57,924 nucleotides of DNA from Acidobacteriaceae bacterium (lineage in GTDB: Bacteria; Acidobacteriota; Terriglobia; Terriglobales; Acidobacteriaceae): NCBI GenBank assembly GCA_003152695.1, contig PMAT01000036.1:56372-114295 (forward strand). Direction: 5' to 3'. A model generated the notes under the pieces. It did not search any database. It was not told the DNA's origin and saw only the letters and a program-made list of their open reading frames with translations. Both the position numbers and the translations under genes were made by a program. Shown one piece after another: positions 10,501 through 49,159 of the stretch. Positions within the stretch are counted from its first letter, which is position 1, and each line of letters begins with the position of its first letter.

Positions 10501-10548
10501 AGCAGGTCCCTCGACTCGCCCGCCGCGGCGACCTCGCTCGGGATGACA
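10501..10548. repeat. dispersed TCATCCCGAGCGA/GTCGAGGGACC element, copy 1
   Basis: Reads AGCAGGTCCCTCGACTCG ... GCTCGGGATGACA on the plus strand, i.e. the element in reverse orientation, with a GCCGCGGC palindrome in its centre. It lies between gcvH and gcvPA. The same ends recur near 18.5, 20.4, 25.6, 32.9, 33.0 and 48.4 kb. Confidence 0.75.
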
Positions 10549-18470: not shown

Positions 18471-18507
18471 TCATCCCGAGCGAGCGCAGCGAGTCGAGGG
18501 ACCTGCT
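18471..18507. repeat. dispersed TCATCCCGAGCGA/GTCGAGGGACC element, copy 2
   Basis: TCATCCCGAGCGAGCGCAGC then GAGTCGAGGGACCTGC, forward on the plus strand. It lies between the ABC ATPase and the Cys/His-cluster protein, next to a remnant of the stem-loop family (TTTGGCTAGGGCGG). Confidence 0.75.
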
Positions 18508-20148: not shown

Positions 20149-20364
20149 AAATTCCAAAACAGAAGTCTGTGCCGTCCCCGGGGGACTCGACTCTCTTCTT
20201 CACGCCCACCCACCGTTCAACCACCCCAACTCGCGCAACAACGGCGCGAGTTGGGGACCCCGGTGAAACGGTGGGCTATCATCTTTCGCGCCCGAGGCGC
20301 TCGTGAAGCAGTGGTTTTAGTGGTCAACGGATAGCGAACAGCGCGATTGTGCCGCTATAGGGGG

Positions 20365-20402
20365 CCTTCGACTCGTCGCTACGGTCCTCGCTCAGGATGA
20401 CA
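20365..20402. repeat. dispersed TCATCC(C/T)GAGCGA element, copy 3 (degenerate)
   Basis: CCTTCGACTCG ... CTCGCTCAGGATGACA in reverse orientation, with AGGATGA instead of GGGATGA. Immediately followed by the CTGAATG heptamer array. Confidence 0.65.
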
Positions 20403-20413
20403 GCGCAAACCTG

Positions 20414-20490
20414 CTGACGGCTGAATGCTGAGTGCTGAATGCTGAGTGCTGAGTGCTGAATGCTGAATGCTGAATGCTGAATGCTGACCG
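20414..20490. repeat. heptanucleotide tandem repeat, CTGAATG type
   Basis: Eleven units with strict period 7: CTGACGG, CTGAATG, CTGAGTG, CTGAATG, CTGAGTG (twice), CTGAATG (four times), CTGACCG. It ends 7 bases before the ctaB stop codon, so it lies in the ctaB 3' region. Confidence 0.88.
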
Positions 20491-25621: not shown

Positions 25622-25665
25622 TGTCATCCCGAGCGAGGACTCTAGTCCGAGTCGAGGGATCTGCG
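25622..25665. repeat. dispersed TCATCCCGAGCGA/GTCGAGGGATC element, copy 4
   Basis: TGTCATCCCGAGCGAGGACT, then CTAGTCCGAGTCGAGGGATC, then TGC. This copy is nearly identical, base for base, to the copy inside prmC at 48380-48427. Confidence 0.8.
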
Positions 25666-25692
25666 GTTCAGCCTGCAAATCGCACGCGCTTT

Positions 25693-25758
25693 AGCGAAAA
25701 GCGAAAGGCGAAGAGCGAAAAGCGATTCTAGCTGAGCGCCGACGGCTGAGGGCTGATG
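25693..25758. repeat. heptanucleotide tandem repeats, AGCGAAA and GCTGAGG types
   Basis: Five units at 25693-25727 (AGCGAAA twice, GGCGAAG, AGCGAAA, AGCGATT), then the stop codon of the desulfurase gene, then four units at 25731-25758 (GCTGAGC, GCCGACG, GCTGAGG, GCTGATG). The second block is inside the coding sequence. Confidence 0.75.
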
Positions 25759-32691: not shown

Positions 32692-32851
32692 CCATCTTCA
32701 CACCAGCCGCAACCCGTGCGGCCAAGTCGCGCCTTTCCTGCAGTGACATCCCCGCCTCGTTTCCCACGTGGAGCAATTCCAGGGTGGCTTGTAGCCTGGG
32801 TAGTGCGGGCCTGAACCCGGGTTATTCATCAGCCCACGTTAGTTGTTTGGG

Positions 32852-32903
32852 TGTCATCCCGAGCGACGAGGTCGCCGCGGCGACCGAGGAGTCGAGGGAC
32901 CCC
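32852..32903. repeat. dispersed TCATCCCGAGCGA/GTCGAGGGACC element, copy 5
   Basis: GTGTCATCCCGAGCGACGAG ... GAGGAGTCGAGGGACCCC. The middle holds the perfect palindrome GGTCGCCGCGGCGACC. It lies in the gene-free 32692-33227 stretch before secA. Confidence 0.75.
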
Positions 32904-32972
32904 TATGGCCGCCAACAATCTCGGACTTGCTGCTGGGCCACGCGGCTACGTTGTGATTCTTGCAGCTATAGA

Positions 32973-33047
32973 GGTCCTTCGACTCCCCCTCACTGCGTTC
33001 GGGGTCGCTCAGGATGACAGACAGAAAAGCAAGTCCCTCGACTCGGG
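32973..33047. repeat. dispersed element, copies 6 (degenerate) and 7 (half)
   Basis: GGTCCTTCGACTCC ... GGTCGCTCAGGATGACA (32973-33019, reverse orientation), followed by an isolated half AAGTCCCTCGACTCGGG (33031-33047). A further palindrome GGGCCTG/CAGGCCC is at 33169-33184. No gene is seen between 32692 and 33227. Confidence 0.65.
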
Positions 33048-33227
33048 CCGCGCCGGGCGGATACAACATCGTGGAACCGCTCTAGATGCACCGCTTCCAA
33101 TCCTGCGACCATGCCTTCTCCGCGACATCCAATGTGTTAGCCTTCTACGTGGGTAGAGTGTGCTGGATGGGCCTGTCCAGGCCCGTCGAACCAAAGTCCA
33201 AGCAGGTCCCTTTCAAGGAACACAGCG

Positions 33228-46750: not shown

Positions 46751-47830
46751 ATGTTTGAACGTCTTGACCAAACCGAACTGAAGTACGAAGAGCTCAACAA
46801 AGCTCTGTCTTCGCCGGATATCGTCTCCGACTCGGCGCGTTTCCAGAAGACCGCCAAGGCCCACAGCGAGTTGGCGCCCATCGTGGAGACGTATCGCGAG
46901 TACAAGGACCTGACACGCGGCATCCAGGAGAGCAAGGCCATGCTGGCCGACGAGAGCGATCCCGAAATGCGCGCCTACGCGCAGGATGAGCTGACCCAAC
47001 TCGAGGCGCGAGTTCTCCAGGTGGAAGCCGATCTCAAGCTGCTGCTGCTGCCCAAGGACCCGAACGACGAGAAGAACGTGGTGCTGGAAATCCGCGCCGG
47101 CACCGGCGGCGACGAGGCCACGCTGTTTGCGGCTGAGATCTTCCGCATGTACACGCGCTACGCCGAAAGCCAGCGTTGGAAGGTGGAAGTGCTTTCGACG
47201 TCGGAATCAACCGTCGGCGGGCTGAAGGAAGTGATCGCCATCATTGAAGGCCAGGGTGTGTACTCGCGCATGAAGTATGAGAGCGGCGTGCATCGCGTGC
47301 AGCGGGTCCCGCAGACCGAGACTCAGGGCCGCGTACACACTTCTGCGGTGACCGTCGCAGTGCTGCCCGAAGCCGAAGACGTGGACATCAAGATTGAAGC
47401 TAAGGACATTCGCATTGACACCTTCTGCTCCTCCGGGCCGGGCGGTCAATCGGTGAATACGACGTACTCTGCGGTTCGCATTACGCACCTGCCAACCAAC
47501 ACGGTCGTAAGTTGCCAGGACGAGAAGTCGCAGATCAAGAATCGCGAGAAGGGAATGCGCGTACTGCGCGCCCGCTTGTACGAGATGGAGCAGCAGAAGC
47601 AGCAGGACGCCCTGGCCAAAGAGCGCAAGGCGATGGTGGGCAGCGGCGATCGCAGCGAGAAGATCCGCACCTACAACTTCGCCCAGGACCGTGTTACCGA
47701 CCATCGCATCGGTTTCACCGCGCACCAGTTGAAGGAGTTCATGGACGGCCGCATCCAGCCCATGATCGACGCGCTGATCACCCACTTCCAGGCCGAGAAG
47801 ATGAAGCAAGAGATGGAGGTCACGGCCTGA
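46751..47830 (+). CDS. prfA: peptide chain release factor 1
   Basis: Terminates translation at UAA and UAG. 359 residues. The catalytic GGQ is in [21 protein letters not shown] near residue 233. The preceding domains ([34 protein letters not shown]) are normal. prmC, the enzyme that methylates this GGQ glutamine, begins 4 bases after the stop. Confidence 0.97.
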
Positions 47831-47834
47831 CCCC

Positions 47835-48746
47835 GTGCAACTGAAACTAGCGCTCGCGTCTGCGGTCGAACGTCTCGATGCTGCTGACGTTGGCTCTCCG
47901 CGCATGAACGCCGAGGTGCTGCTCATGTTCGTCCTCGGCGCCGATCGCGCCTACCTGTACGCGCATCCCGAGCGCGAACTCACCCCGCAGGAAGCCGCGC
48001 GATATGAAGAAGTGCTCGCCCAGCGCGCTACCGGCATGCCATCGCAGTACATCACCGGACACCAGGAATTCTGGGGCTTGGATTTCGTGGTCTCGCCCGC
48101 AGTGCTGATTCCGCGCCCCGAGACCGAGCATCTGGTCGAAGTTGTGCTGGAGCTGGCGCGCGGAATCCAGCGTCCCAAGCTGGTGGATGTGGGGACCGGT
48201 TCGGGATGCGTCGCGCTGACACTCGCGCACGAGTTGCCCGACGCCGAAGTCTATGCCGTCGACCTCTCGCCCGAAGCACTGGAAATCGCGCGCGCCAATG
48301 CCGCCCGGCTGCAGCTCGATAAGCGAGTGCAGTTCCTGCAATGCAATGTCCTCGAGCCGGTATTCGATAACGACGTCACTGTCATCCCGAGCGAAGACTT
48401 CAGCCCGAGTCGAGGGATCTGCTGTTCGGAATTTCGCGACTTCGATTTTGTGGTCAGCAATCCGCCATATGTCGCTTTCAGCGAAGCCGATAAGGTGCAG
48501 AGATCGGTGCAGGAGTTCGAGCCGACCATGGCCGTCTTCGCCGGTTTGCACCGGACTGATGTGATTTGCCCGCTGATTGAGCAGGCGCACGCCGCCCTGA
48601 AACCTGGCGGCTGGTTGGCGCTGGAGATCGGCTACTCCATGCGCGATACGGTCGTGAATTTGTTGAGTCCCACAATGTGGGATGACATCCGCATTATGCC
48701 CGACCTGCAAGGCATTCCGCGAGTGGTGGCGGCGAAGAAGCAGTAG
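47835..48746 (+). CDS. prmC: release factor glutamine methyltransferase, with repeat-derived insertion
   Basis: Methylates the GGQ glutamine of release factors. 303 residues from GTG 47835. SAM site LVDVGTGSGCVALTLA (about 118-132) and the catalytic NPPYV (about 212) are intact. Between the strand VQFLQCNVLEPVF and the strand FDFVVSNPPYV lie about 19 extra residues (DVTVIPSEDFSPSRGICCSE). Their DNA (48380-48427) is a copy of the dispersed intergenic repeat, inserted without breaking the frame. The insertion falls in a loop before the active-site motif, so activity may survive. Coupled to prfA, 4 bases upstream. Confidence 0.95.
   Translation: MQLKLALASAVERLDAADVGSPRMNAEVLLMFVLGADRAYLYAHPERELTPQEAARYEEVLAQRATGMPSQYITGHQEFWGLDFVVSPAVLIPRPETEHLVEVVLELARGIQRPKLVDVGTGSGCVALTLAHELPDAEVYAVDLSPEALEIARANAARLQLDKRVQFLQCNVLEPVFDNDVTVIPSEDFSPSRGICCSEFRDFDFVVSNPPYVAFSEADKVQRSVQEFEPTMAVFAGLHRTDVICPLIEQAHAALKPGGWLALEIGYSMRDTVVNLLSPTMWDDIRIMPDLQGIPRVVAAKKQ
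48380..48427. repeat. dispersed TCATCCCGAGCGA/GTCGAGGGATC element inside prmC
   Basis: TGTCATCCCGAGCGAAGACT, then TCAGCCCGAGTCGAGGGATC, then TGCTGTTC. Near-identical to the intergenic copy at 25622-25665. It is the only copy in a reading frame here. Confidence 0.88.
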
Positions 48747-48748
48747 GG

Positions 48749-49159
48749 TTACTTCGCCCAATCAACGAACATGAGACCGGGTATTCGGGAGAATTCAGAG
48801 ACGTTGTTCGTTACTAAGGTTAACCCGTGACGGAGGCACTGACCGCCGATGAGCGTGTCATAGGCGCCGATTCGGGTTCCACGTGCTTCGAGGTCGGTCC
48901 TAATTTCGCCGGAGAGCCGGGCATCGTCTTCGTCAAAATGAAGGACCTCGACTCCCCAGACAAGAAATGCCTGCAACTGCTGCACGTTTTCCTGGACCCG
49001 AGAGCCCTTGAATACTCCGTACCAAAGTTCGTGAAGCACAACGGACGAGATCAGCAAGGTTGAGCCCCGCCGAATCACTTTTTCGGCCTCGATCCGGACA
49101 GAATCCGGCTTTCGACGCAGAATAGCTACGCAGGCACTCGTGTCGAGGAAGTAGTTCAT
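48749..49159 (-). CDS. vapC: VapC-type PIN-domain toxin
   Basis: 136-residue PIN ribonuclease. Acidic site D6 (FLDTSACVAILR), E44 (LHELWYG), D101 (AYDTLIGG) and the TNN segment at 117-119. The pattern is that of VapC enzymes that cut initiator tRNA or related tRNAs, but the target here is not known. ATG overlaps the end of vapB (ATGA). It converges on prmC with two bases between the stops. Confidence 0.92.
   Translation of the reverse strand: MNYFLDTSACVAILRRKPDSVRIEAEKVIRRGSTLLISSVVLHELWYGVFKGSRVQENVQQLQAFLVWGVEVLHFDEDDARLSGEIRTDLEARGTRIGAYDTLIGGQCLRHGLTLVTNNVSEFSRIPGLMFVDWAK

Follow-up and report, generated by a model that had tools for sequence, protein, structure and literature searches.

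An in-frame copy of a dispersed REP-like hairpin repeat in the PrmC methyltransferase gene of Acidobacteriaceae

The prmC gene of an Acidobacteriaceae bacterium contains, in its reading frame, a stretch that very probably derives from a dispersed REP-like hairpin repeat, one copy of which was inserted in the common ancestor of five or more species of the genus. According to the scenario that we favor, the copy would have entered, in frame, a tolerant surface loop of PrmC, outside the conserved motifs, and the protein therefore carries about 21 extra residues. The insertion would have been close to selectively neutral, and the peptide would have evolved afterwards as an ordinary coding sequence, with the hairpin pairing fading in some species. 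We analyzed a window, that is, one stretch of genomic DNA of 57,924 nucleotides, from the genome designated G000, together with the other genomes of the genus (G001 to G008) and more distant relatives. The central claim of the original prediction, made from the window sequence, was that a dispersed repeat had become protein-coding in prmC, and this claim is supported by the identity to the repeat, by the reading frame and by the pattern of presence and absence across species.

The host open reading frame is full-length (TIGR03534, 270.1 bits against a cut-off of 199.1) and starts 4 bases past the stop codon of prfA, and the best Foldseek hits of the protein include Escherichia coli PrmC/HemK (2b3t and 1t43, TM 0.83 and 0.85 by query). 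The element consists of a hairpin part (48380-48419), which codes for VIPSEDFSPSRGI, and a 3' tail (48420-48427), and both of its ends, the TGTC start and the TGC tail, are those of the repeat family. It is identical to the intergenic copy at 25622-25669 in 43 of 48 positions, with 5 differences. The pattern CATCCCGAGCG N{2,24} GAGGGATCT is matched exactly twice in the window, by the prmC element (at 48383-48420) and by the 25622 copy, and never in 100 dinucleotide-preserving shuffles. The PrmC loop spans 35 codons here vs 14 in two insert-free congeners; 12-13 of the approximately 21 extra residues come from the hairpin (VIPSEDFSPSRG, residues 183-194), and the remainder from the 3' tail and a spacer. 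Thus, the near-identity to the intergenic element that was originally noted holds, whereas the size of the addition, put at about 19 residues, comes out at about 21. The insert lies past the strand that follows motif III and ahead of the strand leading into the NPPY motif. As originally noted, the reading frame is unbroken and NPPY is intact at residue 209; judging from the sequence and the structural model, PrmC with the insert would stay active. Directly behind prmC, on the minus strand, there is an open reading frame for a PIN-domain protein (48749-49159), possibly the toxin of a toxin-antitoxin pair; G002 differs in the length of the stretch behind prmC.

The other copies in the window are listed in Table 1. 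The expectation of six more copies sharing the ends of the element proved about right, with four full matches, one degenerate copy and one right-end match; the right-end motif taken alone, with 2 mismatches allowed, is found in the window no more often than by chance (8 matches vs 8.4 expected). In an Rfam search of the window, no family was matched except for one tRNA (37312). The window also contains simple-sequence arrays, at 20410-20490 and 25690-25725 (gctgaatgctgagt... and gcgaaaagcgaaa..., respectively), translations of which seem to be present in loops of MnmG.

Table 1. The prfA-prmC genes and copies of the repeat in the window
Feature	Position	Strand	Remarks
prfA, peptide chain release factor 1	46751..47830	+	directly upstream of prmC; Pfam PCRF and RF-1
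prmC, release factor N5-glutamine methyltransferase	47835..48746	+	host of the insert; 303 aa, GTG start
REP-like element, in frame in prmC	48380..48427	+	identity to 25622-25669, pattern match, family ends, PrmC alignment
Intergenic copy, same subfamily as the prmC element	25622..25669	+	absent at the syntenic site of G006
Intergenic copy, different interior	10505..10546	-	full pattern match
Intergenic copy, short interior	18471..18503	+	full match; syntenic site of G006 holds a degenerate copy
Degenerate copy	20357..20401	-	syntenic copy of G006 has a different interior
First copy of facing pair	32854..32901	+	full match; in block ~32739-33094 missing from G006
Second copy of facing pair	32973..33017	-	full match; 71 bases from the first
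Right-end match only	33029-33040		weaker copy

The repeat family is REP-like: its arms are conserved, whereas its interiors vary. An exact search with the pattern TCATCCYGAGCG N{2,32} GARGGAYC detected 421 copies over the nine genomes of the genus, from 26 to 64 in each and 64 in G000, and the reversed pattern, used as a control, had no match in these genomes. Among 247 genomes of the phylum, 37, from several families, contain the pattern (0 to 228 copies each), and the control gave 1 match. We extracted 178 copies with their flanks (64 from G000, 60 from G006, 47 from G008 and 7 from G007). Nearly all of these start with TGTC (174, the others being GGTC in 3 cases and CGTC in 1), and the tail past the right arm is, typically, CCTA (91 copies) or TGC (67 copies). 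At the variable positions of the arms, a C-G or T-A pair is formed in 171 of the 178, a count in which related copies enter separately and to which no significance value is attached. The element has a 5-bp outer stem and an interior of 4-32 bases, and the matched hairpin comprises 24-52 bases. The 162 copies with an interior of at least 12 bases include 110 distinct interiors, of which 48 have a perfect interior stem of at least 6. The best interior stem in these copies averages 4.9 vs 3.4 in shuffles, but no more than 37 of the 162 exceed every one of 50 shuffles made from their own letters, and in 57 the best stem is 2 or 3. In DNA folding, neither the prmC copy (z +1.28) nor the 25622 copy (z +1.12) did better than its shuffles; a further sequence in the same test gave z -0.36. 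Copies located at most 250 bases apart tend to face each other (10 of 13 pairs). In several other Acidobacteriota genera, a short form, TCATCCTGAGCGnAGCGAAGGATC, predominates at the places listed; its core, GCGnAGC, resembles DNA mini-hairpins.

Copies of the repeat have been gained, lost and altered within the genus, as follows from the comparison with the syntenic regions of G006, where the 25622 copy is absent, the 18471 copy is degenerate and the 20357 copy has another interior. In the same comparison, a block of approximately 356 bases containing the facing pair is absent from G006, with TTCC at both junctions. A Y1/RAYT transposase as the mobilizer finds no support. Y1 transposase genes (Y1_Tnp) are represented in 8 of the 9 genomes of the genus by 47 matches, none of these in G000, and no element arm was found within about 1.5 kb of the 30 matches examined among the 47. 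In ten other genomes, 1 element arm was found near the 30 matches examined among 53 (about 1.5 kb on each side), and the copy-rich genomes G094 (99 copies) and G136 (52 copies) have no Y1_Tnp match at all.

The PrmC loop was compared across open reading frames from 110 loci, several of which represent one contig fetched twice. Inserts are present in this loop in 7 of the 9 genomes of the genus, all separate assemblies, where the loop spans 33-51 codons; G001 and G007 lack the insert and have a loop of 14 codons. G000, G002, G003 and G008 have VIPSEDFSPSRG in common, and in G006, VIPSEDLRSSRG is followed by 14 more residues, the first of which again resemble the start of an element; these five species carry inserts of the same subfamily. 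In G005, the peptide is VILSEDFSPSRR, and the element belongs to the CCT...AGG arm type with a CCTA tail (CCCCTAT). The insert of G004, longer and derived from a different repeat, occupies this loop as well and is in the same frame. The DNA of this insert (93 bases) is itself dispersed, with 14 matches in G004 (the insert among them), 22 in G001, 5 in G007 and 7 in G005, many of them over the central part only. Where it has an insert, this loop is occupied by one of three repeat types, depending on the species. None of the 93 loci outside the genus (one of them an open reading frame without NPPY) encodes an element-like peptide, although a few have other long loops. The alignment of relatives, the check proposed at the outset, therefore comes out in favor of the insertion, and the possibility that the residues are ancestral and shared outside the genus is rejected on these 93 loci.

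In the tree of prfA together with prmC without the insert, the five carriers of the shared subfamily form one clade (100/100). G004 groups with the insert-free G001 and G007 (98.6/99; G004 with G007, 86.5/83); a tree from codon positions 1 and 2 only is less well resolved (96.7/93 for G004, G001 and G007). G005 and G023, from which no prfA was obtained, could be placed in the prmC trees only, and there G005 appears beside the five carriers with weak support (41/60 and 79.5/76). The simplest reading is that the G004 insertion was a separate event, the alternative being losses in G001 and G007. These observations bear on a rival account of the history, namely, that the loop is a hotspot that was hit, or in which the element was exchanged with other copies, more than once across the genus, as opposed to one inherited insertion. 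We consider this account about evenly poised between right and wrong. It gains from the other arm type and the CCCCTAT tail of G005, and from the synonymous divergence between the G005 insert and the other inserts, which is only 0.11-0.24 (pS) vs 0.53-0.57 for the rest of the gene; the different dispersed repeat in the same loop and frame of G004, which groups with insert-free species, and the different interiors of the syntenic copies at 20357 point in the same direction. Within the five-species clade, in contrast, the copy looks inherited, with a core synonymous divergence of the order of that of the gene (0.37 and 0.34 vs 0.27 and 0.28 in two pairs, and 0.12 vs 0.28 in another; there is no whole-gene divergence for G008 or G003 paired with others, and the G008-G003 value comes from 70 codons, not 217). 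One ancestral insertion followed by losses in G001 and G007 is possible as well. Repeated insertion would concern the history across the genus and leave the nature of the insert untouched; it does not conflict with the single-origin explanation given above for the five species.

PrmC is not the only enzyme of the genus with in-frame copies of this kind, which occur also in mnmG, nrdJ, pheT, murI and the gene of a DUF488 protein. In G000, three genes contain 4 of the 64 copies: prmC has one, mnmG has a facing pair (G000:C120:48229-48307), and nrdJ, which encodes the B12-dependent ribonucleotide reductase, has one in the part for the C-terminal linker (G000:C61:24010-24054); for the other 60 copies, filtering and reading found no gene running through them. 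The nrdJ copy, for which the filter detected coding signal on only one flank, was retained because of the family match of the protein, and the NrdJ insert is common to G000 and G006. In G002, two parts of nrdJ match in different frames, which indicates a frameshift or an assembly error. We further screened 114 copies from G006 (53 regions), G008 (40, with the prmC copy left out) and G007 (7 of its 26 copies). The in-gene filter was passed by 5 of these, and 2 were dropped because they lie at the very start of the frame and are probably upstream of the gene; the remaining 3 are within the DUF488 protein gene (G006:C71:60910-60955), near the C-terminus of glutamate racemase (murI, G008:C125:3443-3494) and in frame in the phenylalanyl-tRNA synthetase beta subunit (pheT, G008:C225:9196-9244).

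The loops of two of these enzymes vary among the species. The PheT loop contains element-type peptides in G008, G001 and G005 and other sequence in G000, G002, G004 and G006; G003 and G007 have a short version. MnmG has two loops with inserts specific to the species. In the seven genus genomes where it could be read, no two have the same first loop, although G000 and G002 have one part of it in common; among the inserts are apparent translations of other intergenic simple repeats (KSEERKAKSEERGE, VSSFEFQVSSEE). It is conceivable, and we put this forward only tentatively, that loops of core enzymes are reusable landing sites in which repeats are inserted or exchanged in frame, giving close relatives unrelated repeat-derived loops in PrmC, MnmG and PheT. 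If so, a repeat family with constant arms and freely swapped interiors would drive the replacement of loops in core proteins.

An AlphaFold model of PrmC, built with an alignment of 60 PrmC sequences, has a mean pLDDT of 89.1, and the sole segment below 50 is 180-194, which encompasses the core of the insert (183-194). The insert is, accordingly, a low-confidence loop of an otherwise well-folded protein, in line with the surface loop envisaged in the original prediction, and the model suggests that the extra residues are probably disordered. In the 12 core codons, G000, G002, G003 and G008 show synonymous changes only (5 or 4 synonymous and 0 nonsynonymous, counted by hand from the codons), and for these four closest carriers, the constraint test gave P 0.0006-0.01 over the range of transition bias. 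When G006 is included, there are 3 nonsynonymous core changes (6 of 9 or 5 of 8 changes being synonymous), with P 0.006-0.07. The ratio does not differ from that among intergenic copies of the subfamily (6 nonsynonymous to 3, counted by hand; Fisher P 0.35, or 0.03 without G006). Because G006 raises P and the intergenic ratio does not differ, the data are suggestive only of mild, ordinary constraint on the peptide, under which the hairpin origin may be fading.

A stronger proposition, that the insert gained a function, be it in contacting the ribosome or RF1 or in regulating the enzyme, appears very improbable to us. The identical 12-residue peptide in four species, preceded by a far more diverged spacer (52-70% identical in DNA vs 87-97% for the insert), would fit such a function, but the peptides of G004, G005 and G006 are different, G001 and G007 have none, and the insert segment has low model confidence. 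Moreover, other enzymes read the element in other frames (VIPSE/VILSE, CHPER, DPST), and with three frames in use, no single peptide is favored.

Selection on the DNA or RNA hairpin within prmC, for example, for mRNA stability or translation speed, is in our judgment very improbable. G005 retains the arm pairing through changes on both arms, at the price of two amino acid changes, and the arm bases match in all but a few family copies; but the G005 state is a common element subtype, so that it may simply be another copy. Furthermore, pairing has been lost elsewhere: G000 breaks 2 of the 5 inner hairpin pairs by two synonymous changes that leave the peptide unchanged, and the prmC copy of G006 has lost two outer pairs and one inner pair, one of the outer losses being found also in intergenic copies. 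As reported above, the prmC copy also folds no better than its shuffles. Finally, although G000 is a draft of 141 contigs, an assembly or binning artefact, or a chance likeness of ordinary loop variation to the repeat, is next to impossible, because five species share the insert and two more have other repeats in the same loop, all in separate assemblies, and because the pattern is matched neither in shuffles nor, when reversed, in the genus.

The comparison with the Rickettsia palindromic elements (RPEs) drawn in the original prediction holds in principle, as an analogy that does not imply kinship. RPEs are described, in the passages of PMC6649704 devoted to them, as palindromic repeats in protein-coding genes that are said not to abolish activity and whose repeat identity fades over time, with citations of Ogata 2000, Ogata 2002 and Claverie and Ogata 2003. 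The repeat analyzed here is, likewise, a dispersed palindromic repeat found in frame in several genes (prmC, mnmG, nrdJ, pheT, murI and that of the DUF488 protein); unlike RPEs, set beside it here by their description, it occurs in Acidobacteriota, most of its copies are intergenic, and the matched hairpin is 24-52 bases long.

The CGTC- and GTAG-tagged REPs, as presented in Di Nocera et al. 2013 (PMC3733652), are, similarly to our repeat, short hairpins, mostly intergenic and often paired, some of which reside within genes, in their case genes of DNA/RNA enzymes. The same source describes different REPs at about the same recB site in two Xanthomonas species. Our family is distinct from the CGTC REPs in its ends (174 of 178 copies have TGTC, and a single one has CGTC) and in its build, with an outer stem of 5 bp around a variable interior as opposed to a stem of 8-9 bp and a loop of 4-5 bases (Table 1 of PMC3733652). 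CGTC REPs are defined, in part, by the absence of transposase genes flanked by their copies; on this point, the counts made here cover Y1_Tnp only, with 0 arms near 30 of the 47 matches in the genus and 1 near 30 of the 53 in the other genomes. The end of the GTAG REPs is not that of our family, in which TGTC at one end and a tail of either CCTA or TGC are conserved, and the REPtron arrangement, in which GTAG REP copies flank a Y1 (RAYT) transposase gene, was not seen around these 30 of 47 and 30 of 53 matches, within flanks of ~1.5 kb. The resemblance to the RAYT/REP systems of Y1 (HUH) transposases, as outlined in parts of PMC6006769, consists in the dispersed hairpin repeats, here often arranged as facing pairs (10/13). 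The enterobacterial RU elements, as described in PMC2759123, are intergenic repeats that also occur within genes, as does our repeat, but are MITE-like and longer, at 103-168 bp. In PMC3733652, the word Acidobacteria occurs once, in relation to TIR-flanked transposases. A search of the open PMC literature by the arm sequence or the translated peptides retrieved no paper on this repeat, and none of the titles and abstracts among the matches listed names a repeat of this kind for Acidobacteria.

The process itself is known but uncommon; what is new is the host group, a family whose interiors are exchangeable, and the finding that certain loops of core enzymes have been filled repeatedly. The prmC element is a traceable case of the in-frame conversion of an intergenic repeat into protein, in soil bacteria and outside Rickettsia, where this idea is best known. 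With species that have the insert, species that have a different insert and species that have none, the question of whether such repeats are passengers or raw material for proteins becomes testable on an enzyme that is simple to assay.
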